NCBI GenBank assembly: GCA_003265895.1
Contig: QFBS01000013.1
Coordinates: forward strand, 1-42,032
Length of the DNA: 42,032 nt
Source: Candidatus Marinamargulisbacteria bacterium SCGC AG-410-N11
GTDB taxonomy: Bacteria; Margulisbacteria; Marinamargulisbacteria; GCA-2716485; AG-410-N11
Direction: 5' to 3'
Shown here: positions 13,429-25,169 of the stretch, piece after piece
Position numbering within the stretch: position 1 is the stretch's first letter
Layout of the letters: every line of letters starts with the position of its first letter
Notes under the pieces: model-generated
Told to the model about the DNA's origin: nothing
Database searches by the model: none
Seen by the model: the letters and a program-made list of their open reading frames with translations, nothing else
Translations under genes and position numbers: made by a program

Positions 13429-13914
13429 ATGCAACAACTTTTAGCTTTTATAATTTTATATACTTTTTGGATAATATGGTCTGGTAAGTTTTATCCCTTT
13501 TATTTGTTAATAGGCGCAGTTTGTGTACTAATGATAATTTTTTGGTTTGGTGATCTTATTGTTGTTAAAAGTAAACGGTCTTTACAACGTAGGATTTATT
13601 CTTTTTTTAGATTTGAATTATATTCTGTATGGTTATTATGGGAAATAGTGAAAGCTAATATTCATGTTGTTAAGGTATCATTTTCTAGAGATGTAAGAGC
13701 AAGTTTAGAGCCTAGGATGTTGGAATTTAAAACAACGTTAAAGACAGATATGCAAAAGTTTTTATTAGCGCAATCAATAACCTTAACTCCTGGTACTGTT
13801 AGTGTGAGAATTAATAATGATGTTTTTTTAGTACATGCGATAACAGAGGATACTGCAAATGGTGTTCCAGGGGAAATGGAAAGTAGAATAAAGAATATTT
13901 CGAAAGGTAATTAG
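13429..13914 (+). CDS. mrpE: Mrp/Mnh cation:proton antiporter subunit E
   Basis: 161 aa, with two membrane helices in the first 50 residues and a cytoplasmic C-terminal part. The family signature SITLTPGTVSVRI is at about 115-127, and LWEIVKANIHVVKV lies before it. MrpE is needed for assembly or full activity of the multisubunit Na+(K+)/H+ antiporter. It is the first gene of the operon, whose order E-F-G-(A C-term/B)-C-D-D-small-D is one of the known layouts for bacteria with split D subunits. No strong SD. mrpF begins two bases after the stop. Confidence 0.9.
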   Translation: MQQLLAFIILYTFWIIWSGKFYPFYLLIGAVCVLMIIFWFGDLIVVKSKRSLQRRIYSFFRFELYSVWLLWEIVKANIHVVKVSFSRDVRASLEPRMLEFKTTLKTDMQKFLLAQSITLTPGTVSVRINNDVFLVHAITEDTANGVPGEMESRIKNISKGN

Positions 13915-13916
13915 AT

Positions 13917-14222
13917 TTGGTTAACTTTTTTATATTTGTTGGAATTATTATTTTAATATTAATGATGGTTGTGTTTTATCGTGTTCTTAAAGGACCAACC
14001 GTTATGGATCGTCTTTTAGGTGTTAACGTCATTGGTACAAAAGCAACCGTTTTATTAGTTGTTATGGGAGTGATTTTTGAAAGAGTTGATATGTTTGTTG
14101 ATATAGCAATTGGATATGGGCTCTTAAATTTTATAGCTTCAATTGGAGCTGCTAAATACTTTCAACATCATAAAGTTTTACAACCACGATCTCAATGGGA
14201 AGAGGATTTGACTAAGTCATGA
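13917..14222 (+). CDS. mrpF: Mrp antiporter subunit F (TTG start)
   Basis: 101 aa with three membrane helices. The conserved core GPTVMDRLLGVNVIGTKAT (about 25-43) and IGYGLLNFIASIGAAKY (70-86) identify MrpF. The only start that keeps the first helix is TTG at 13917, with AAAGG about nine bases upstream inside the end of mrpE. The stop overlaps the mrpG start (ATGA). Confidence 0.92.
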   Translation: MVNFFIFVGIIILILMMVVFYRVLKGPTVMDRLLGVNVIGTKATVLLVVMGVIFERVDMFVDIAIGYGLLNFIASIGAAKYFQHHKVLQPRSQWEEDLTKS

Positions 14223-14638
14223 TATTAAATATAATTTCAATTTTATTTTTTACTGCAATTTTGTATTTTTCATCGTCTCCATTAGTTTTTTATTTATTAA
14301 ATGGTTTAAGTATATGTTTGATTTTATTAGGTTTATTTTTCTTTTTAGGAACTAGTATTGGTGTTATTCGATTTCCTGATTTTTATACTCGGATGCATGC
14401 AGCGGGTAAAGGGGATACATTATCTTCAATTTTAATATTATTTGGAATTGCTTTATTTGTATTAAATACAGGTACTTTGAGTATAGGATTAGTATTGGTT
14501 TGTATTAAAATATTGTTGATTATTAATTTTATTTTTATTGGAAGTCCTACTGCAACACATGCTATTATGGATGCCGGATATGGTACAGAAGTAAAGCATT
14601 GGACAAATGATAGTGAAGGAATAAAAAAGAAAAAATGA
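14219..14638 (+). CDS. mrpG: Mrp antiporter subunit G
   Basis: 139 aa with about three helices. The signature IGVIRFPDFYTRMHAAGKGDTL (within residues 44-66) and the tail GSPTATHAIMDAGY are typical of MrpG. ATGA overlaps occur at both ends, with mrpF upstream and the MrpA/B fusion downstream, so translation is coupled. Confidence 0.93.
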   Translation: MILNIISILFFTAILYFSSSPLVFYLLNGLSICLILLGLFFFLGTSIGVIRFPDFYTRMHAAGKGDTLSSILILFGIALFVLNTGTLSIGLVLVCIKILLIINFIFIGSPTATHAIMDAGYGTEVKHWTNDSEGIKKKK

Positions 14639-15660
14639 TTTGGCAATTTGATATCCTTTTATTAACGTTAGTCGTTGTTTGCGGGTTTGTTTCTCTTTGG
14701 ATTAAAGATTTAATGGGTGCTGTTATTGTTTTTGGTGCATATAGTTTTTTAATGTGCTTAGTTTGGACTGGTATGGGTGCTGTAGATGTTGCCTTTACGG
14801 AAGCTGCTGTTGGTGCAGGTGTTAGTACTATTTTTTTTATAGCAACGGTTTTTCATACAAGTCGAACTATTCGATATAATAAATGGGATTTAAGTACTAA
14901 GTTTTTTTCTAGCATTATTTGTATTTTAATGGGATTCTTTTTGATGGTAGCTATTGGTGATTTTCCTGCTTGGGGGGATGCGTTATCTCCGGTAAATAAT
15001 AATGTAGCAAAATATTATCTAGAAAACTCTATGGAAGAAACAAAAGTACCAAATGTAGTAACGTCGGTGTTAGCCGATTATAGAGCTTTTGATACTATGT
15101 TTGAAACAGGTGTGGTTTTTGTGGCTAGTTTAGTAATTTTTACATTACTGCTTCAATCTGATGGACGAAAAAAATTAATGAAATCAGCTTTTCAGAAAGT
15201 TAGTTTTCTAAATGTATCAGAAAGCTTAATAATTAGAAAAGCTTGTGGTCTTATGGTTCCATTTATGCAACTTTTTGCTTTATATGTAGTTGTTCATGGC
15301 CATTATAGTCCGGGTGGAGGGTTTCAAGGCGGCGTTATATTAGGAGCCAGTCTTATTTTATTATCAATGGCATATGATATAAAGAAAGTGTTTGCTAGAT
15401 TTCACATGAAGTTTATGATAAAAAGTTTAGCTGTAGGTGTTCTTATTTTTGCTGGTATTGGTTTGATTTGTTTAATATTGGGGGGTAACTTTTTAGATTA
15501 CTCAGCATTATCTAAGCTTTTTCCATCAATGGGATCTATTAAATCTAGGTATAATGCAATGTTATGGGTAGAGGTTGGTGTTGCTTTGACCGTTATGTCA
15601 GGTATGTTTGCAATTTATACTAGTTTATCATCCAATGGTAAATTTGAAGAGGGATTATAA
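14635..15660 (+). CDS. mrpB: Fused MrpA C-terminal (MbhD/MbhE) and MrpB subunit
   Basis: 341 aa. Residues 1-70 match the DUF4040/MbhD module that forms the tail of MrpA (GAVDVAFTEAAVGAGVST, about 46-63). Residues 75-170 resemble MbhE. Residues 200-335 are MrpB (VPFMQLFALYVVVHGHYSPGGGFQGG, about 208-233; read as separate short motifs). The large NuoL-like N-terminal part of MrpA is missing from this protein and is presumably supplied by one of the D-type genes downstream. TAATG overlap with mrpC. Confidence 0.88.
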   Translation: MIWQFDILLLTLVVVCGFVSLWIKDLMGAVIVFGAYSFLMCLVWTGMGAVDVAFTEAAVGAGVSTIFFIATVFHTSRTIRYNKWDLSTKFFSSIICILMGFFLMVAIGDFPAWGDALSPVNNNVAKYYLENSMEETKVPNVVTSVLADYRAFDTMFETGVVFVASLVIFTLLLQSDGRKKLMKSAFQKVSFLNVSESLIIRKACGLMVPFMQLFALYVVVHGHYSPGGGFQGGVILGASLILLSMAYDIKKVFARFHMKFMIKSLAVGVLIFAGIGLICLILGGNFLDYSALSKLFPSMGSIKSRYNAMLWVEVGVALTVMSGMFAIYTSLSSNGKFEEGL

Positions 15661-16025
15661 TGTTTGAATATTTGATTACAAACTATAACTATATGGTAGT
15701 CGTGTTTCTCATGATGATGGGTTTATGGGCGATGATAGCTAAAAAAAATTTGGTAAAGAAATGTATTGGTTTGGTTATTTTTCAAACTGGAATAATACTT
15801 TTTTATATTTCTATGGGGGCAAAAAATAATTCTACAATACCTATAATTGATCCAAAATATGGTGAAGCTGCGATTAATTATGCAAATCCATTAACCCAAA
15901 TATTAATGTTAACGGCTATTGTAGTTGGCGTAGCAACATTGGGTGTAGGGTTAATGCTTGTACAAAGAATTTATAAAGAGTATGGATCAATCAACGAAGA
16001 TCGCATATTGGAGAAATTTAAATAA
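15660..16025 (+). CDS. mrpC: Mrp antiporter subunit C (NuoK-like)
   Basis: 121 aa, three helices, homologous to NuoK of complex I. The family motif ANPLTQILMLTAIVVGVAT lies at about residues 75-93. Start and stop both overlap their neighbours by a single base (TAATG). Confidence 0.92.
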   Translation: MFEYLITNYNYMVVVFLMMMGLWAMIAKKNLVKKCIGLVIFQTGIILFYISMGAKNNSTIPIIDPKYGEAAINYANPLTQILMLTAIVVGVATLGVGLMLVQRIYKEYGSINEDRILEKFK

Positions 16026-17524
16026 TGGCAGATCAATTTTTAGTTTTAATCGTTCTTTTTCCGTTATTTGTAGGTCTATTAATACCAATTATTGCATATT
16101 TCAATAAATCAGTTGTATGGCCTCTTGCAATTCTTTCTTTAATTGGATCATTTTGGGCTGTGTTTAATACTGCCACTCAATTACTAAAGTTAGATCCTAG
16201 TTCGTCAATCTCTTATTATTTAGGAAACTGGATGGCGCCATTTGGAATTGAATATGTTGTAGATCGTTTTAATATTATGGTTTTATTTGCGATTATATGT
16301 GTGTCATTGCTAACAACAATATTTGCTAAGCAAGTTATTGAAAAAGAACTAGGTGATAATGCGGCAAACTTTTATAGTTTATTCTTGTTATTTATAACGG
16401 GATTACTTGGTATTACAATTACTGGGGATGCTTTTAATTTATATGTTCTTTTAGAAATTGCGTCATTAACAAGTTATGGTTTAATTGCATTAGGAAGAGG
16501 CCGAGCACTAGTTGCTACATTTAACTATCTTATTATGGGTTCGATGGGAGCCTGTTTTTATCTGTTGGGTGTTGGTTATTTATTTATAAAAACAGGTACA
16601 TTAAACATGGATCAGTTGTATGATGTTTTACCTCTGTTATTTGATTCTAAAGCTGTGCTAGTGGGGTTTGTGTTTATTATACTAGGAATGTGGGTTAAGA
16701 TGGCTTTTTTTCCATTACATTCATGGCTTCCAAATGCTTATTCTTTAGCTCCTACTGCAGCAGCTTGTTTAATGGCGCCTTTAATGACAAAGGTTTCTGT
16801 TTATGTAATGATTCGGTTTATGCTTAACGTTTTTTCAACTGAATATGTTTACTCTGTTCTAACAATTAATAATATTATTGTTATTATGTCTTCTATTGCT
16901 ATTATAGCGGGGTCGATTTATGCACTATCTCAAAAAAATCTCAAAAAAATGTTGACGTTTATAATTGTTGCCGAGATAGGATATATGGTTGGTGGCGTAT
17001 GGACAGGGCATGTTGATGGTATTCGAGGTGCAATATACCATATAACTGCGGATGCGTTTATGACATTATGTTTATTTATGGCAGTGGGTTGTATTGTTTA
17101 TCGTGTTGGTAATGATAAATTGGAGTCTTTAAAAGGTATCTTTAAAAAAATGCCAATTACAATGATTTGTTTTTTAGTTGGAGGGTTCTCAGTTATTGGG
17201 ATTCCTCCTACATGCGGATTTTTTAGTAAATGGTATTTGATATCAGGAGCCTTTAACTCTGGCGCATGGTATTTTATTATTGCATTAATTATTTCTAGTT
17301 TAATTAATGCTGTTTTGTTTTTTAGAATTATTGAAATTGGATTTTTTGGAGCTATGTCAAACGAAAAGCCAGATTATAAATCTTTACAAAGTATCAAATT
17401 TAATGAAGTTCCAATTAATATGTGGCTACCATTAGTGATAGTATCAATGATTCTTATTATTTTAGGTATTTATACTAATGAAATTATGACAAACTTTATT
17501 TTAAATATTGTGCCAATGATGTAA
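16025..17524 (+). CDS. mrpD: Mrp antiporter subunit D, first copy
   Basis: A 499-aa polytopic protein of the proton-conducting antiporter-like family (NuoL/M/N, MrpA/D). The key helix-5 glutamate is in NLYVLLEIASLTSYG, and the conserved lysine region is in WVKMAFFPLHSWLPNAY. About 14 membrane helices are expected. It moves ions in the antiporter complex. Starts one base into the mrpC stop. The second D-type gene follows after 10 bp. Confidence 0.92.
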   Translation: MADQFLVLIVLFPLFVGLLIPIIAYFNKSVVWPLAILSLIGSFWAVFNTATQLLKLDPSSSISYYLGNWMAPFGIEYVVDRFNIMVLFAIICVSLLTTIFAKQVIEKELGDNAANFYSLFLLFITGLLGITITGDAFNLYVLLEIASLTSYGLIALGRGRALVATFNYLIMGSMGACFYLLGVGYLFIKTGTLNMDQLYDVLPLLFDSKAVLVGFVFIILGMWVKMAFFPLHSWLPNAYSLAPTAAACLMAPLMTKVSVYVMIRFMLNVFSTEYVYSVLTINNIIVIMSSIAIIAGSIYALSQKNLKKMLTFIIVAEIGYMVGGVWTGHVDGIRGAIYHITADAFMTLCLFMAVGCIVYRVGNDKLESLKGIFKKMPITMICFLVGGFSVIGIPPTCGFFSKWYLISGAFNSGAWYFIIALIISSLINAVLFFRIIEIGFFGAMSNEKPDYKSLQSIKFNEVPINMWLPLVIVSMILIILGIYTNEIMTNFILNIVPMM

Positions 17525-17534
17525 GGACTAAAAT

Positions 17535-19004
17535 ATGACAATTGTTTCAAATTTACCTATATATGCTATGTTAGTTTCCTTTCTTACGATTTTTCCAATT
17601 ATTATTTTTGGAAAAAATCAAAATGTAAGAGAAGTATTTACATTTATAGCGGCATTTACTAAATTATATATTTTATTTAATTTAGCTAAATTTGTTCTTG
17701 ATGGAAATGTTGTTGTTTGTAAACTTATACAAGTTTTATCTTTTATTTCTATTGATTTTAAAGTTGATGGGTTTGGTATGTTGTTAGCTATTGTTGCTTC
17801 CAGCTTATGGATTGTAACAAGTTTATATTCAATTGGTTATATGAGATCATTAAAAGAACACGCTCAAACCCGATATTTTTGTTGTTTTGCATTGGCATTA
17901 TCAGCTACCATGGGTGTTGCATTTTCCGCAAACTTATTAACTATGTATTTATTTTATGAATTGCTTTCTTTATCTACTTATCCTCTTGTTACGCATAACC
18001 AGGATCAGGATGCAAGAACCGGAGGGCGTAAATATTTAACATATCTATTAGGTACATCTATTGGCTTAGTTCTTCCTGCAATGATTATTACTTATAACTT
18101 AACAGGAACTTTATCCTTCAATGAAATGGGTATTTTTGGAAATTCCATTCAAATTGGAACTTTAACTATATTACTAATAATGTATTTATTTGGTTTTGCA
18201 AAAGCAGGATTGCTTCCTTTTCATTCTTGGTTACCAGGTGCTATGGTAGCACCTACTCCTGTTAGTTCATTATTACATGCTGTGGCTGTAGTTAAAGTTG
18301 GCGTTTTTTGTATTGTTCGTATTTTAACCCAAATTTTTGGAATTAATCTTTTATCATCAACGCATTTAGGTACAATTGTTTGTGTTATTGCTGGTTTAAC
18401 TGTATTAGTGTCTTCTTTGGTTGCAATATCTCAAGATAATTTGAAAAGACTTCTCGCTTTTTCAACTATTGGTCAATTAGGCTATATTGTTTTAGCCGCT
18501 GGTGTTGCTAGTAAGTTATCTGTTACAGGGAGTATGTTACATATTTCAATGCATGCCTTTGGTAAAATTACATTGTTTTTTTGTGCTGGTGCAATTTATG
18601 TAGCAACAGGTAAGAAGTATATTAGTCAGATGGTAGGAATAGGGCGGCGAATGCCATTCACTATGGTTGCTTTTTTTATAGGGTCTTTAAGTATAATAGG
18701 TCTTCCCTTAGCCGGTGGTTTTTTAAGTAAATGGTATATGGTGCTAGGTACATTAGATGTTGGTAAATCTTGGGTTATGGTAATATATTTAATTAGTTCC
18801 TTTTTAAATGTTGCTTATTTTTTTCCTATAATTTATAAAGCTTTTTTTTGTACAGATAATGAGTCTTTATTTCCTAATGAAATTAAAGAGGCTCCATTAG
18901 CGGCGCTACTTCCACCTTTAGTAACAGCATCCATTACAGTTGCTCTATTTATATTTCCTGATATATTTTTAAATTTAGCCAAAATTGTAGTAGGAGTTAA
19001 TTAA
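17535..19004 (+). CDS. mrpD: Mrp antiporter subunit D, second copy
   Basis: A 489-aa paralogue of the preceding gene. Motifs: YLFYELLSLSTYPLVTH with the helix-5 glutamate, FAKAGLLPFHSWLPGAM, and VVKVGVFCIVRI with the conserved lysine. SD is a weak AAGGA in TGTAAGGACTAAAAT. Several D-type subunits in one operon replace the large MrpA and may give separate ion paths. The stop overlaps the next gene by one base. Confidence 0.9.
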   Translation: MTIVSNLPIYAMLVSFLTIFPIIIFGKNQNVREVFTFIAAFTKLYILFNLAKFVLDGNVVVCKLIQVLSFISIDFKVDGFGMLLAIVASSLWIVTSLYSIGYMRSLKEHAQTRYFCCFALALSATMGVAFSANLLTMYLFYELLSLSTYPLVTHNQDQDARTGGRKYLTYLLGTSIGLVLPAMIITYNLTGTLSFNEMGIFGNSIQIGTLTILLIMYLFGFAKAGLLPFHSWLPGAMVAPTPVSSLLHAVAVVKVGVFCIVRILTQIFGINLLSSTHLGTIVCVIAGLTVLVSSLVAISQDNLKRLLAFSTIGQLGYIVLAAGVASKLSVTGSMLHISMHAFGKITLFFCAGAIYVATGKKYISQMVGIGRRMPFTMVAFFIGSLSIIGLPLAGGFLSKWYMVLGTLDVGKSWVMVIYLISSFLNVAYFFPIIYKAFFCTDNESLFPNEIKEAPLAALLPPLVTASITVALFIFPDIFLNLAKIVVGVN

Positions 19005-19261
19005 TGAATAATAAATCTAATCTTGGTTTTTTTGATAATTTAAGTAATAAGAAATTATTATGGAAGATTTTATTGGGCTTTGGTTTTGTTTTATTTATTT
19101 CTGAATTCTTTGTTGAAAGATATGGTTATTTTGGTGAGGATAGTTTAGATGGTCTTTTTGGGTTCTATCCAATTTTAGGACTTCTCGTTACTATAATTAT
19201 TGTAACTCTTGTCAATATTTTAGGGAAATTGTTACTTGTTGAGGAAAACTTTTATGATTAA
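19004..19261 (+). CDS. Small membrane subunit of the Mrp operon
   Basis: 85 aa with two predicted helices (about 18-36 and 53-76), separated by a loop with YGYFGEDSLDGLFGFYPILG, and a C-terminal ENFYD. From memory, two-helix proteins with an E..xFYx-GF core and an EDYYD-like end occur at this same position in other D-rich Mrp operons, which supports a real accessory subunit rather than chance. Overlaps mrpD upstream by one base and the next gene by eight. Confidence 0.8.
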   Translation: MNNKSNLGFFDNLSNKKLLWKILLGFGFVLFISEFFVERYGYFGEDSLDGLFGFYPILGLLVTIIIVTLVNILGKLLLVEENFYD

Positions 19262-21050
19262 TCTGTTAAATTCAAATCCAGCATTTATCTTTTATCTTGC
19301 AGCCGCAATTTTACCTTTTTTAAAAGGTCAGTTAAAAAATATTTTTGCAATTATAATTTTATTTATATCATTTATTTTTGTATATCAATTAGAACCTGGT
19401 ATTGTAACTTTTCCATTTCTACATTATGAACTAACAATATTGAGAGTGGACGTATTAAGTAAGGCTTTTGGTTATATTTTTACATTGAGTTGTTTAGCTG
19501 CCTTTATTTATGGATATTTTCAAAAAAAATCATTTGAATTAGTAAGCATATTAATTTATGTAGGTAGTGCTATAGGTGTAATATTTTCTGGGGACTTGTT
19601 AAGTTTATATATGTTTTGGGAATTAATGGCTGTTTTTTCTACTTTTTTGATTTTATCAAATAAGACCGTAAAATCAATGTTAGCTGCTAAACGATATATT
19701 TTAATACATGTCGCAGGAGGATTGGTTTTATTAGCTGGTATAATGTTGCATATTAATTCAACAGGAAGTATCGCATTTAATAGTTTTACTATAGAATCTA
19801 TGTCAACATGGCTTATATTAATTGGATTTTTAGTAAATGCTGCCGCTTTTCCTTTTAATTCATGGTTAACCGATGCTTATCCAGAAGCTACAATTTTAGG
19901 TGGTGTGATATTAAGTGCTTATACTTCTAAAACTGCTATATATGCGCTATTAAGAGGTTTTCCAGGTTGGGATATCTTAGTTATAATTGGTTGTATTATG
20001 GCTATTTATGGCATTATTTACGGATTATTAGAAAATGATATTAGAAGAGTTTTAGCATTTAGTATCATTAATCAATTAGGATTTAAAATATGTGGTATAG
20101 GTATAGGAACTTCATTAGCATTAAGTGGTGTTATTGCACACTCAATATGTTCAATATTATATAATTCTTTATTGTGGATGTCTGCTGGGGGTATATTATA
20201 CAGTGTTGGAAAGAGTAAATTTACTGAATTGGGCGGTCTATATAGATCAATGCCTTTAACGTGTATTTTTGCCATTATTGGAGCTTTATCGATATCTTCA
20301 TTTCCACTAACTAATGGTTTTACATCTAAAACTATTATATTATTGGCTGCACAAAATAAGGAATTATTACTTCCATGGTTTATTTTAAAGATCGGTTCAG
20401 TAGGTGCCTTTGTAATTATTGGACTTAAATTTATTTATTTTTCATTTTTTAATAAACAAAAAGAATTAAAGGTATCAAATCTACCAACGGGAATGTATTT
20501 AGGTATGGGTTTATTATCTATTTTATGTATTTATATTGGTTGTTTTCCTGAGGTTTTATATAATATTTTACCTAATTCAGATATCGTAAAAGAAACTGTG
20601 CCTTATACTTTTTATTCAATATATGTAAAGAAATTTGTTAAAGTCTTATCGCAATTTCAGATTTTAACATTTGCTACTATTGCGTTCTTTTTATTCCTTC
20701 CATTTTTTAAAATTAAGAATAAAATTTCTATTGATATAGACATTATATATCGTAGAGGTGCTCAGTATGTTTTTTGTTTTATTGATTGGTTTTTTAATTC
20801 TTTAAATAAAAATAGTCAAAAGTTAATTATAGATAACTTTGTAAACAAAGTTTGTGTATTTTGTAAACATGGTCCATCTTACGTTTTATATGGATCAAAT
20901 TATGTTTATTTATTAGCAACTAATAATCTTGATAAACTAAATCGCGAGAAAATATTTAATCGCTCTATAAATAATAATTTTCCTGTTGGAAATTCGGCTT
21001 TATTTATTTTAATCACTTTTATAATTATTATGTTCTTAAATAATATTTAA
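19254..21050 (+). CDS. Mrp antiporter D/A-type subunit, third copy
   Basis: A 598-aa antiporter-like subunit. A TTG at 19236 is in frame, but the ATG at 19254 has GAGGA eight bases upstream and is chosen. It holds LYMFWELMAVFSTF with the helix-5 glutamate, NAAAFPFNSWLTDAYPEAT, and SAYTSKTAIYALLRG with the conserved lysine. After the usual 14 helices there is an extension of about 120 residues with one final helix (VGNSALFILITFIIIMFL). It is longer and more divergent than the other two D subunits and could take the MrpA/NuoL role. Last gene of the operon. Confidence 0.87.
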   Translation: MINLLNSNPAFIFYLAAAILPFLKGQLKNIFAIIILFISFIFVYQLEPGIVTFPFLHYELTILRVDVLSKAFGYIFTLSCLAAFIYGYFQKKSFELVSILIYVGSAIGVIFSGDLLSLYMFWELMAVFSTFLILSNKTVKSMLAAKRYILIHVAGGLVLLAGIMLHINSTGSIAFNSFTIESMSTWLILIGFLVNAAAFPFNSWLTDAYPEATILGGVILSAYTSKTAIYALLRGFPGWDILVIIGCIMAIYGIIYGLLENDIRRVLAFSIINQLGFKICGIGIGTSLALSGVIAHSICSILYNSLLWMSAGGILYSVGKSKFTELGGLYRSMPLTCIFAIIGALSISSFPLTNGFTSKTIILLAAQNKELLLPWFILKIGSVGAFVIIGLKFIYFSFFNKQKELKVSNLPTGMYLGMGLLSILCIYIGCFPEVLYNILPNSDIVKETVPYTFYSIYVKKFVKVLSQFQILTFATIAFFLFLPFFKIKNKISIDIDIIYRRGAQYVFCFIDWFFNSLNKNSQKLIIDNFVNKVCVFCKHGPSYVLYGSNYVYLLATNNLDKLNREKIFNRSINNNFPVGNSALFILITFIIIMFLNNI

Positions 21051-21145: not shown

Positions 21146-21718
21146 GATTCTAATATTAATACTTATTTAATGTATTTAATTATCTCATTCTACAAATTTA
21201 TTTATATTTTATAATTATAAGAATTAAGAGTCTTAAATTTTGAATATAAAAATTCCAATTTAAATCATATATTATTTTTAACGCTAACCCTAACAGCTAC
21301 AATCTATTCTTATATTTGGTAATATGAAAAAATAGATAAAAGAATTTATAGGAATTTCAAATAAGGAATTATAGAAGGTAATGCCTTTTGATAAAGACTA
21401 TATTATAAATAAACATGTATTTAATAACAACGCTTACTAATATTAATACTTATTTTATATATTTAATTATTGATTGCTATAAACTTATTTATAGTTTTAT
21501 AATTACAAGAATTAAGACTTTTAAATTTAGAATATAAAATCCAATTTAATTTATATATTATTTTTAATTCTAAAAGCTAGAATTTATACTTATATTTAGT
21601 AATATAAAAAATAGTGAATAAAATTAAATTTATATAAAAAAAAGGCATTACAATCTGTAATGCCTTTTGATAAAGAATATATTTTATTTTATAAATAAAC
21701 GCCGTATTTAATAACAAC
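21146..21718. repeat. Degenerate tandem duplication (about 287 bp x 2) including the hppA 3' end
   Basis: Copy A (about 21146-21431) and copy B (about 21433-21718) align over their full length. The offset is 287 bases at both ends and 279 in the middle. Shared anchors are TAATATTAATACTTATTT (21151/21438), TAATGCCTTTTGATAAAG (21379/21658) and GTATTTAATAACAAC (21417/21704). Copy B carries the last 30 or so bases of hppA and its terminator. Copy A carries a decayed copy of both. Apart from this, 21051-21145 is AT-rich with nothing recognisable, and no gene is seen in 21051-21688. Confidence 0.8.
21636..21668 (-). terminator. Intrinsic terminator of hppA
   Basis: AAAAGGCATTACA (21640-21652) and TGTAATGCCTTTT (21656-21668) form a perfect 13-bp stem with a 3-base loop, 20 bases past the hppA stop. 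On the bottom strand the stem is followed by a run of eight T (complement of 21636-21643). It is also usable by the convergent mrp operon, with four T on that side. Confidence 0.88.
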
Positions 21719-23962
21719 ACCTACAAATACTATTGATACTATTGTCATTAATTTTATTAAAATGTTCAGAGAAGGCCCAGATGTATCTTTAAATGGATCT
21801 CCTATAGTATCTCCTATAACAGCTGCTTTATGAGTTTCAGATCCTTTTCCATCGCAATTTCCTGCTTCTATGTACTTTTTAGCATTGTCCCATGCTCCTC
21901 CAGCATTATTTAAGAATATTGCTAAGCTGAACCCTGTTGTTAATGTTCCGATTAATAGTCCTAATACTCCACTTATATTTAGTAATAGACCAACAATGAT
22001 TGGAATAAATATTGCTAACATAGAAGGAATAATCATTGCTTTTAATGAACCTTCTGTTGAAATAGACACGCAACTTTTATAGTCTGGTTTACCAGTACCA
22101 TCCAGAATTCCTTTTATTTCTTTAAATTGTCGTCTTACCTCTTTAACCATATCTCCAGCTGCTTTTTCTACTGCAGAAATTGTTAGTGCACAAAATACAA
22201 ATGTCATCATTGCTCCAATAAATATTCCACATATAAATTTAGGGTTAATTATATTTATTTGAAAAATATTGACTAGGTCTAAACTTGTTATTGTTTTCAT
22301 TTTTTCTGTAGAAAATGTGATATCACCTAATTGTAATGGAGCATTCACAGTTAATTTAGTTATCCATAATTTTACAGAGTCTAAATAAGCAGTAATTAAT
22401 GCTAATGCTGTCAATGCTGCAGATCCTATTGCAAATCCTTTTCCTGTAGCGGCGGTTGTGTTGCCTAATGAATCGAGTGCATCTGTTCTTTTTCTTACAA
22501 TACTTTCTAGTCCTGCCATTTCAGCATTTCCTCCTGCATTATCTGCAATTGGACCAAACGCATCTGTTGCAAGTTGAATACCTAATGTTGAAAGCATTCC
22601 AATTGCTGAAAATGCTATTCCATAAATACCCATTGATAAATGTGTAGATCCACCAGAGGATAAAAAAGCTCCTATAATTGCTAATGCAATGACAACTACT
22701 GGAATTCCTGTAGATTTCATTCCTGTTGATATACCGCATAATATTCCAGTTGCTGTTCCACCTTTTGCTGCTTCTGATATTAATTGTGTTGGTTTGTATG
22801 TATCTGAAGTATAGTATTCAGTTGCTTGCCCAATGATGAATCCAGCTATTAGTCCAATAATAATACTTCCAAAGTTACCCCATGAAATTATATTAAGATT
22901 TGCTAGAATTGCTATATAAATTATAATTAGAACTGATGTTATACCCGTTCCAATTAATAAGGATGTTAGTAAATTCTTTTGTGTTGCATTTTCTTTTGTT
23001 TTAACTAGAAAAATTCCAATTAATGAGAAAATAATTCCACCACCTGCAATCAACATTGGAGCGATAATTGCATTTATACCAATGTTTGTAAATGTAAGCG
23101 CTAGCGATGAACCTATTGCTGTAGCAGCTAAAATACTTCCACAGTATGACTCATATAAATCTGCTCCCATGCCGGCTACGTCACCTACATTATCGCCAAC
23201 GTTATCAGCTATGGTTGCTGGATTTCTTGGGTCGTCTTCTGGGATTCCTGCTTCAACTTTACCTACTAAATCAGCTCCTACATCTGCTGCTTTCGTAAAT
23301 ATTCCTCCTCCAACTCTTGCGAATAGTGCCATTACAGAGGCTCCCATTGCATATGTTAATAGAGCATTACATATTTCTCTTAACTTTAAAGCTTCAAATT
23401 GTGCATTATTTAATAGTTCTGGTGTCCAAGTCATGGATAATGTATTTGCTATTGAATTGCTAACTCCAAATAAATTTAAATCGTAAAATATATTTAATAT
23501 TACGAACCAAATTGAAAGATCAAGTAATCCAAATCCTACTACCATTAACCCCATTATGGATCCTGCTCTAAATGATACTTTTAGACCATTATTTAGAGAT
23601 GATTGGCATGCAGAAGCAGTTCGTGCTGATGCATTTGTAGCTGTTTTCATTCCAAGATAGCCACAAATAGCTGACCAAAACCCACCACTAATAAATAAGA
23701 GAGGCACAAATGGTCCTTGTACTCCTAAAAATGCTAGAACTGTAAGAATGATAAAAATAAGTATAAATACAATGGTCATAATTTTATATTGTTTAAATAG
23801 ATAGGCCATTGCACCTTCTTTTACATATCCCGCTATTTCTTTCATTTTTGGGGTGCCTTCATCTTGGCTTAGTAATTTTTGATAAAGAATAAAAGCTGTA
23901 GTTAATGCTATTATTGCTGAAACTGGTGCTAAGTACCATATACTTGGAATTGACGTTAACAT
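21689..23962 (-). CDS. hppA: K+-dependent membrane pyrophosphatase, probably Na+-pumping
   Basis: 757 aa, about 16 membrane helices. It couples PPi hydrolysis to ion export across the inner membrane. Catalytic motifs are DVGADLVGKVE (227-237), EDDPRNPA (242-249) and DNVGDNVGD (253-261). GNTTAATGKG (500-509) has Ala where K+-independent enzymes have Lys, so K+ dependence is expected. The helix-6 glutamate sits in GADLYESY (E271), the position I associate with Na+-PPases rather than the position four residues later in plant H+-PPase. Na+ transport is therefore inferred. SD AAAGGAG lies five bases before the ATG. Its promoter and a leader hairpin are listed separately. Confidence 0.93.
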   Translation of the reverse strand: MLTSIPSIWYLAPVSAIIALTTAFILYQKLLSQDEGTPKMKEIAGYVKEGAMAYLFKQYKIMTIVFILIFIILTVLAFLGVQGPFVPLLFISGGFWSAICGYLGMKTATNASARTASACQSSLNNGLKVSFRAGSIMGLMVVGFGLLDLSIWFVILNIFYDLNLFGVSNSIANTLSMTWTPELLNNAQFEALKLREICNALLTYAMGASVMALFARVGGGIFTKAADVGADLVGKVEAGIPEDDPRNPATIADNVGDNVGDVAGMGADLYESYCGSILAATAIGSSLALTFTNIGINAIIAPMLIAGGGIIFSLIGIFLVKTKENATQKNLLTSLLIGTGITSVLIIIYIAILANLNIISWGNFGSIIIGLIAGFIIGQATEYYTSDTYKPTQLISEAAKGGTATGILCGISTGMKSTGIPVVVIALAIIGAFLSSGGSTHLSMGIYGIAFSAIGMLSTLGIQLATDAFGPIADNAGGNAEMAGLESIVRKRTDALDSLGNTTAATGKGFAIGSAALTALALITAYLDSVKLWITKLTVNAPLQLGDITFSTEKMKTITSLDLVNIFQINIINPKFICGIFIGAMMTFVFCALTISAVEKAAGDMVKEVRRQFKEIKGILDGTGKPDYKSCVSISTEGSLKAMIIPSMLAIFIPIIVGLLLNISGVLGLLIGTLTTGFSLAIFLNNAGGAWDNAKKYIEAGNCDGKGSETHKAAVIGDTIGDPFKDTSGPSLNILIKLMTIVSIVFVGVVIKYGVYL

Positions 23963-23980
23963 TTTAACTCCTTTAATTTA

Positions 23981-24016
23981 AAAATAAAAATACACCTGCT
24001 GTTAGGAGGTGTATTT
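23981..24016 (-). terminator. Terminator-like hairpin in the hppA leader / after lptG
   Basis: AAATACACCT (23988-23997) and AGGTGTATTT (24007-24016) form a 10-bp stem with a nine-base loop. Read on the bottom strand it is followed by a T-rich tract (TTATTTTT) ending just before the hppA SD. It may end the lptG operon, but the likely hppA promoter is upstream of it, so hppA transcripts must also pass through it. The bottom-strand sequence CACCTCCT at stem and loop is complementary to the hppA SD core AGGAG. Confidence 0.65.
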
Positions 24017-24039
24017 GTTAATCTATCTAATATACGGTT

Positions 24040-24068
24040 ATTATCGGTTATATTTTTAGTTATGTCTA
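24040..24068 (-). promoter_or_regulatory. Candidate promoter of hppA
   Basis: Bottom strand TAGACA (24068-24063; five of six) and GATAAT (24045-24040; five of six) are exactly 17 bases apart, in the 118-bp gap between lptG and hppA. The predicted start is near 24033, giving a leader of about 70 nt that contains the hairpin. Confidence 0.55.
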
Positions 24069-24080
24069 GTTATTTTTTTT

Positions 24081-25169
24081 TTATAATGAACTATTTTTTT
24101 TAAGTAATAAAATTCCTGTTAAACCAACTATAATATTTGGTATCCATGCTGCAAATAATGGAGACATTGTATTTGATAATCCTAATCCCATACTTATAGA
24201 AAGGAGTATAAAATAAACTAATATAATTATTAAACTTAATCCTAATCCCATGGCTGAAGAACTTCTATGAGGTTTGACACCAACTGAAATCCCAATAATG
24301 GAATAAATTAGTGATGAAAAAGCGATAGATAATTTAAGATGATAATTCATGATATCTTTTGATGGGTTTTCTCCGTTTCTAATTTTATTTAAAATTTGAT
24401 TCATTAGTTCTTTTCGGCTCATCTCTTCATAATTTTTTTTACGTTTTGTTAAATCTATTGGATTAATATTTATCTTTATAAATTCTTTTTCAAAGTTGAT
24501 AACAGTTAATTTTTTTTGTTCATTTTTTGGAAAGTAATGCATTATTCCATTATAAAATTCCCAACCAGTTAGTTTTTTCCATTTTCCTGTTTTTGATCTG
24601 ATAATTCTATGTAAACTACCATTTTCAAATTCAGCTACAGTTATTTCATTTAATATTCCTTCCTTGATATCTTTTACGTTTATAATTCTGATGGGAATTC
24701 CATCTTTATATTGTGTGAAATTAATATTTTCTTTAATAGTTGGTTTTTCACTGTGCCTGTACGATCTAAATAAATCTTCTGCCATTGAAGAAGCTTTAGG
24801 TACTATTGATTCGTTAAATCCGATTGTTAATAAACTAATTATGAGCCCAAATATAATAACCGGAATAGTAACTCGAATTAAACTAATTCCACTTGATCTA
24901 AAGGCAATTAGTTCTAGATCGTTTCCCATTCTTCCAAATACAGATATTGTTGAAAATAGTATGGACATTGGAAATGAAATCGCGATAATTTGTGGTAATT
25001 TTAAACTAAATAATATTATTAAATCTAATATAGGGATGTTATATTTAATAGATTCTCCAATTAAATTAAATAATAGTGTTGTTCCTGCTAATATAAATGT
25101 GAAAGCTGCAATACCAAATAGAAAGGGCCCTATTAGCTCTTTAAATATATATTTATCAATTATTTTCAT
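24081..25169 (-). CDS. lptG: LPS export permease, LptF/LptG family
   Basis: 362 aa of the YjgP/YjgQ family. Helices are near 13-33, 50-70 and 98-118, then a periplasmic beta-jellyroll-like region (about 130-260), then three helices near 270-355. It extracts lipopolysaccharide from the inner membrane, driven by LptB. Opening residues MKIIDKYIFKELIGPF and the segment FGRMGNDLELIAFRSSGIS are typical. Whether it is F or G cannot be told; G is chosen by its position after lptB. ATGA overlap with lptB. No lptA, lptC or second permease in the window. Confidence 0.85.
   Translation of the reverse strand: MKIIDKYIFKELIGPFLFGIAAFTFILAGTTLLFNLIGESIKYNIPILDLIILFSLKLPQIIAISFPMSILFSTISVFGRMGNDLELIAFRSSGISLIRVTIPVIIFGLIISLLTIGFNESIVPKASSMAEDLFRSYRHSEKPTIKENINFTQYKDGIPIRIINVKDIKEGILNEITVAEFENGSLHRIIRSKTGKWKKLTGWEFYNGIMHYFPKNEQKKLTVINFEKEFIKININPIDLTKRKKNYEEMSRKELMNQILNKIRNGENPSKDIMNYHLKLSIAFSSLIYSIIGISVGVKPHRSSSAMGLGLSLIIILVYFILLSISMGLGLSNTMSPLFAAWIPNIIVGLTGILLLKKNSSL

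Follow-up and report, generated by a model that had tools for sequence, protein, structure and literature searches.

A terminator-like hairpin downstream of a conserved promoter in the leader of the membrane pyrophosphatase gene hppA of a Marinamargulisbacteria genome

Transcription termination inside 5' untranslated regions is common in Escherichia coli (Adams et al. 2021, PMC7815308). Terminators in 5' leaders are less stable than those at 3' ends, and among them the rimP-leader shows no antiterminator that can be recognised (Naville and Gautheret 2010, PMC2965389); the main text of that study does not deal with hppA. The small RNA SisA controls hppA of Caulobacter post-transcriptionally (PMC12559287). 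The accessible portions of the literature found on control of hppA and pyrophosphatase leaders describe no terminator in an hppA leader.

The window considered here, meaning the whole 42,032-nucleotide stretch that was analysed, comes from Candidatus Marinamargulisbacteria bacterium SCGC AG-410-N11 (contig QFBS01000013.1) and carries hppA downstream of an lptG-like gene. Membrane pyrophosphatases allow energy-limited cells to recover energy from pyrophosphate, and to our knowledge little is known about how bacteria set their level. The features of this locus are as follows.

24081..25169, minus strand: lptG-like LPS export permease gene, upstream of hppA (best NCBIfam match LptG, below its cut-off)
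24040..24068, minus strand: sigma-70-type promoter TAGACA-N17-GATAAT toward hppA (10 of 12 consensus matches; conserved in the order)
23988..24016, minus strand: terminator-like hairpin of 10 outer and 2 inner pairs (-11.2 kcal/mol)
23980..23990, minus strand: T tract TTTTTATTTTT, the putative terminator U tract (from the sequence; its first three T also pair in the stem)
23968..23972, minus strand: Shine-Dalgarno (SD) core AGGAG of hppA (from the sequence)
21689..23962, minus strand: hppA, membrane-bound ion-pumping pyrophosphatase, 757 aa (NF001954, 957.9 bits against a cut-off of 894)
21640..21668, minus strand: 3' intrinsic terminator of hppA, 20 nt past its stop (-14.8 kcal/mol)

The minus-strand order is recA, rny, lptB, the lptG-like gene, a gap of 118 nt and hppA (ATG at 23962), all on the same strand. 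A plus-strand gene cluster at 13429-21050 converges with hppA, and the two of its genes that were scanned (17535-19004 and 19236-21050) matched models for subunit D of Mrp-like monovalent cation/H+ antiporters.

The promoter boxes, TAGACA at 24068-24063 and GATAAT at 24045-24040, stand 17 nt apart. Consensus-type matches are cheap in AT-rich sequence: 5 kb held 35 of them where 26.5 were expected. A full-length HppA relative is encoded in five of the seven genomes of the order (G000, which is this genome, and G002, G003, G004 and G005), three of the relatives being 70-72% identical to the protein here and that of G003 68%, and in all five the lptG-like gene lies directly upstream. Every one of these five readable lptG-hppA gaps, that of G000 included, contains TAGACA followed 16-17 nt downstream by a -10-like box (GATAAT, TATCAT, CATAAT, TATAAT and TATAAT), the spacing in G004 and G005 being 16 nt as read by eye. 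The 17-nt pattern occurs only three times in the 163,748 intergenic strand-bases of G000, the hppA site included, and is thus so rare that a TAGACA promoter in each gap is not due to chance. Because an automatic alignment of six lptG-hppA gaps left the TAGACA boxes out of register, the comparison rests on this anchor read by eye. A pattern search fixed at 17-nt spacing reported only three of the six gaps, given the 16-nt spacing in G004 and G005 and the gap of G012 (same class, another order), where the gene pair is present and TAGACA is missing. From the conserved promoter, transcription would start at about 24033, an unmapped position, and since the promoter lies upstream of the hairpin, the hairpin falls in the leader of hppA itself.

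The hairpin, AAATACACCT-C-CU-AAC-AG-C-AGGTGTATTT at 24016-23988, begins about 17 nt past the expected transcript start. Its T tract lies on one flank only, in the hppA direction, and ends 7 nt ahead of the SD. The element joins a stable hairpin to an immediately adjoining U-rich tract, the mark of an intrinsic terminator, and it is placed as in an attenuator, between a promoter kept in all five readable genomes of the order, with its start predicted, and the start codon. In these respects the sequence-only reading, which had proposed a TAGACA/17/GATAAT promoter toward hppA and, some 15 bases past the start, a 10-bp hairpin with a T-rich tract just before the SD, proved accurate. The predicted stability has a z of -5.3, and none of 200 dinucleotide shuffles was as stable, for a segment chosen after the fact. 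The stem holds only four G-C pairs, the T tract is broken by an A, and a d'Aubenton-Carafa-type score is 6.8, which is positive yet under the 15 best intergenic matches.

Strong intrinsic terminators are scarce in this genome, and Rho is encoded as well. A survey for hairpins with T tracts covered 1,080,911 bases, 813 genes from simple ORF calls and 392 gaps (81,584 bases), counting both strands and thus two-way palindromes twice. It gave 19 intergenic matches at dG <= -10.5, where 10 shuffles averaged 0.4; the corresponding figures are 19 and 1.2 at <= -9, and 22 and 3.3 at <= -7. Hairpins of the strictest class are thus rarely due to chance, and the hppA leader hairpin, scored at -10.6 in this survey, falls barely within that class; a first scan had missed it because only loops of 3-8 were counted. 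Among leaders of at least 60 nt, 5 of 444 carry such a match at dG <= -9, that of hppA included. Three of the other four begin 18-25 nt past a stop codon, and the fourth (L179) resembles coding sequence and was left out.

Three other loci of the same genome were noted alongside. At L160 (2801-2830, G000:C27), within rpsP-khpA-ylqD-trmD-rplS, the U tract of a strong terminator-like hairpin runs into the SD of trmD; none of the 20 other trmD starts placed in the class has such a hairpin within 70 nt, and one of them, L204, has it 78 nt upstream. At L153 (13263-17396, G000:C50) proteins of 184-196 aa, their N termini signal-like, form a tandem family; the neighbours at 13887 and 14720 do not differ in protein sequence, and three strong terminators come after members. 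At L139 (18829-20000, G000:C7) two copies of a 277-nt stretch, 86% identical, lie 895 nt apart, and both open with the same palindrome, which is two-way and terminator-like.

The hairpin is likely to be a leader terminator, a form of control that is ordinary in kind and here confined to one lineage. The fuller reading, to which we give an even chance, is that hairpin and U tract form a premature, leaky intrinsic terminator that works without a cis sensor. Polymerase starting at the conserved promoter would meet the terminator some 45-55 nt later; a fraction of transcripts would end at the U tract and the remainder would read through into hppA, the leakiness being suggested by the intact hppA that stands behind the hairpin. 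The same element may also trim read-through from lptG. With no cis sensor, the terminator would most likely set a ceiling on hppA expression, and any regulation would have to act through trans factors or the conditions of elongation.

The folding predictions bear directly on the matter of a sensor. Prefixes of 30, 34 and 38 nt of the predicted transcript from about 24033 fold at 0.0 kcal/mol, revealing no upstream competing fold or antiterminator, and the hairpin forms upon synthesis of its 3' arm, reaching -8.0 kcal/mol at 43 nt and -11.2 kcal/mol at 47 nt. The stretch from the expected start to the hairpin contains no ATG, GTG or TTG, leaving no short open reading frame for a leader-peptide attenuator. 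A riboswitch or T-box was likewise rejected: only about 17 nt precede the hairpin, no known aptamer lies upstream, and no Rfam match reached the gathering score in this leader or in seven other loci scanned. The sequence-only reading had further proposed that loop-side CACCTCCT can pair with the SD, so that the hairpin and an SD-blocking fold could alternate. CACCTCCT has 5 nt complementary to AGGAG, but it is mostly the 5' stem arm and not free loop, and the alternation is not supported: with CUCCU forced onto AGGAG the 131-nt fold reaches -11.1 kcal/mol against -18.7 when free, a penalty of 7.6 kcal/mol that argues against a switch pairing the SD with CACCTCCT. In the free fold the SD pairs with early downstream codons. 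Of the 148 genes called here with an AGGAG SD, 6 have CTCCT in the 80 nt ahead of it, which is uncommon and is not evidence of pairing. Regulated attenuation, an antiterminator and a cis sensor are thus unsupported, and of the proposed attenuation of hppA there stands a terminator-like hairpin in the gene's own leader, with no antiterminator, sensor or SD switch.

Comparison with relatives shows the hairpin to be lineage-specific. It is missing from the lptG-hppA gaps of all four order relatives (G002, G003, G004 and G005), and selection on it is consequently not demonstrable. In G004 and G005 a weak A-U stem (TTTCTAT...ATAGAAA) occupies the same place ahead of the SD. From the -10 box to the ATG there are 77 nt in this genome against 32-59 nt in the four relatives, an excess of roughly the hairpin length. 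Neither a pattern search with fixed spacing, which found no second copy in this genome, nor a DNA search of 56 genomes, which returned only short AT-rich matches besides the hairpin's own site, points to a mobile or repeated terminator. The sequence-only reading had named lack of conservation in close relatives as evidence against itself, and this applies by half: the hairpin is absent from four genomes of the order with the same gene pair, but these are only 68-72% identical in HppA.

Of the other explanations, the one that survives best, though we consider it unlikely, is that the hairpin is a 5' leader stem and not a working terminator, protecting the hppA mRNA or keeping the SD region open. 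Its closeness to the expected 5' end (about 17 nt), the A-U stem at the same place in G004 and G005 and the RNase Y gene (rny) two genes upstream of lptG are in keeping with such a role, for which, however, a U tract is unneeded. RNase J is the textbook case of a nuclease blocked by 5' stems, and a C-terminal domain search did not find it in this genome, which is about 56% complete; moreover, the pairing of the SD with downstream codons in the 131-nt fold indicates that the hairpin does not keep the SD open.

Slightly less probable still is a 3' terminator of the recA-rny-lptB-lptG run that by chance lies beyond the hppA promoter. The genes are all on one strand and the 118-nt gap offers no other terminator-like hairpin, but a terminator in this place would cut hppA's own transcript too, and it begins 64 nt past the lptG stop where the other strong terminators mostly begin 2-25 nt past theirs. 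In four relatives of the order the gap between the same two genes has no such hairpin, and Rho is available to terminate lptG read-through. The earlier argument that a plain lptG terminator need not sit past the next gene's promoter is strengthened by the conservation of that promoter upstream of the hairpin.

That the hairpin is neutral, recently gained sequence with no function is improbable: lineage specificity and a leader longer by roughly the hairpin speak for it, yet strength and T tract are far above shuffles, and a position between promoter and SD would very likely affect expression. Least probable is that a repressor uses the palindrome as its DNA operator, close behind the promoter, for although the near-perfect 29-bp dyad spans about +17 to +45 from the expected start, a fixed-spacing search allowing up to three mismatches returned just two weak sites besides this one, a yield under that of the control, and an operator does not require a T tract.

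Beyond this lineage, among 94 hppA starts preceded by 100 nt or more of sequence, 6 have a terminator-like hairpin within 90 nt, the present one included, and only two, this one and L052, have it within 30 nt; at this survey's loop limit of 11 nt, attenuation across hppA genes is not general, and the long-loop leaders of G011 and G015 would be missed. In those two genomes, of one genus in the same class, a conserved TTTACA-N17-CATAAT is followed by an hppA leader of about 170 nt (G011:C50, L006; G015:C95, L005). At the end of this leader, immediately ahead of the SD, stand a long-range helix, AGAACTC...GAGTTYT, and a U tract. This structure is distinct from the window hairpin, has no Rfam match and, with two genomes, is a lead. 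It is conceivable, if very doubtful, that hppA leaders in this class independently gained SD-adjacent terminators, in this genome and in the G011/G015 genus, which would point to conditional control of the pump by transcription termination through an undescribed trans factor, the terminated leader of about 50 nt with its CACCUCCU motif possibly acting in trans.

If real, the leader terminator proposed here would provide a simple handle on the level of a pyrophosphate-driven ion pump, with a reach limited to one lineage-specific element. By analogy, we propose that it works like known terminator-only leaders. Like the rimP-leader and other terminator-only 5' attenuators (PMC2965389), it has neither a visible antiterminator nor a large aptamer, and a hairpin weaker than the gene's own 3' terminator (-11.2 against -14.8 kcal/mol) agrees with the stability trend of that study; the rimP-leader, however, has a specific stem motif and is conserved in many species, whereas this hairpin is found in one lineage. 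The premature 3' ends in E. coli 5' untranslated regions were mapped experimentally (PMC7815308), whereas the hppA case is argued from sequence. The SisA case in Caulobacter shares with it the tuning of hppA at the RNA level, there through a base-pairing small RNA with no leader terminator described in the portions of the source consulted (PMC12559287), and here, as proposed, through a terminator in the leader.
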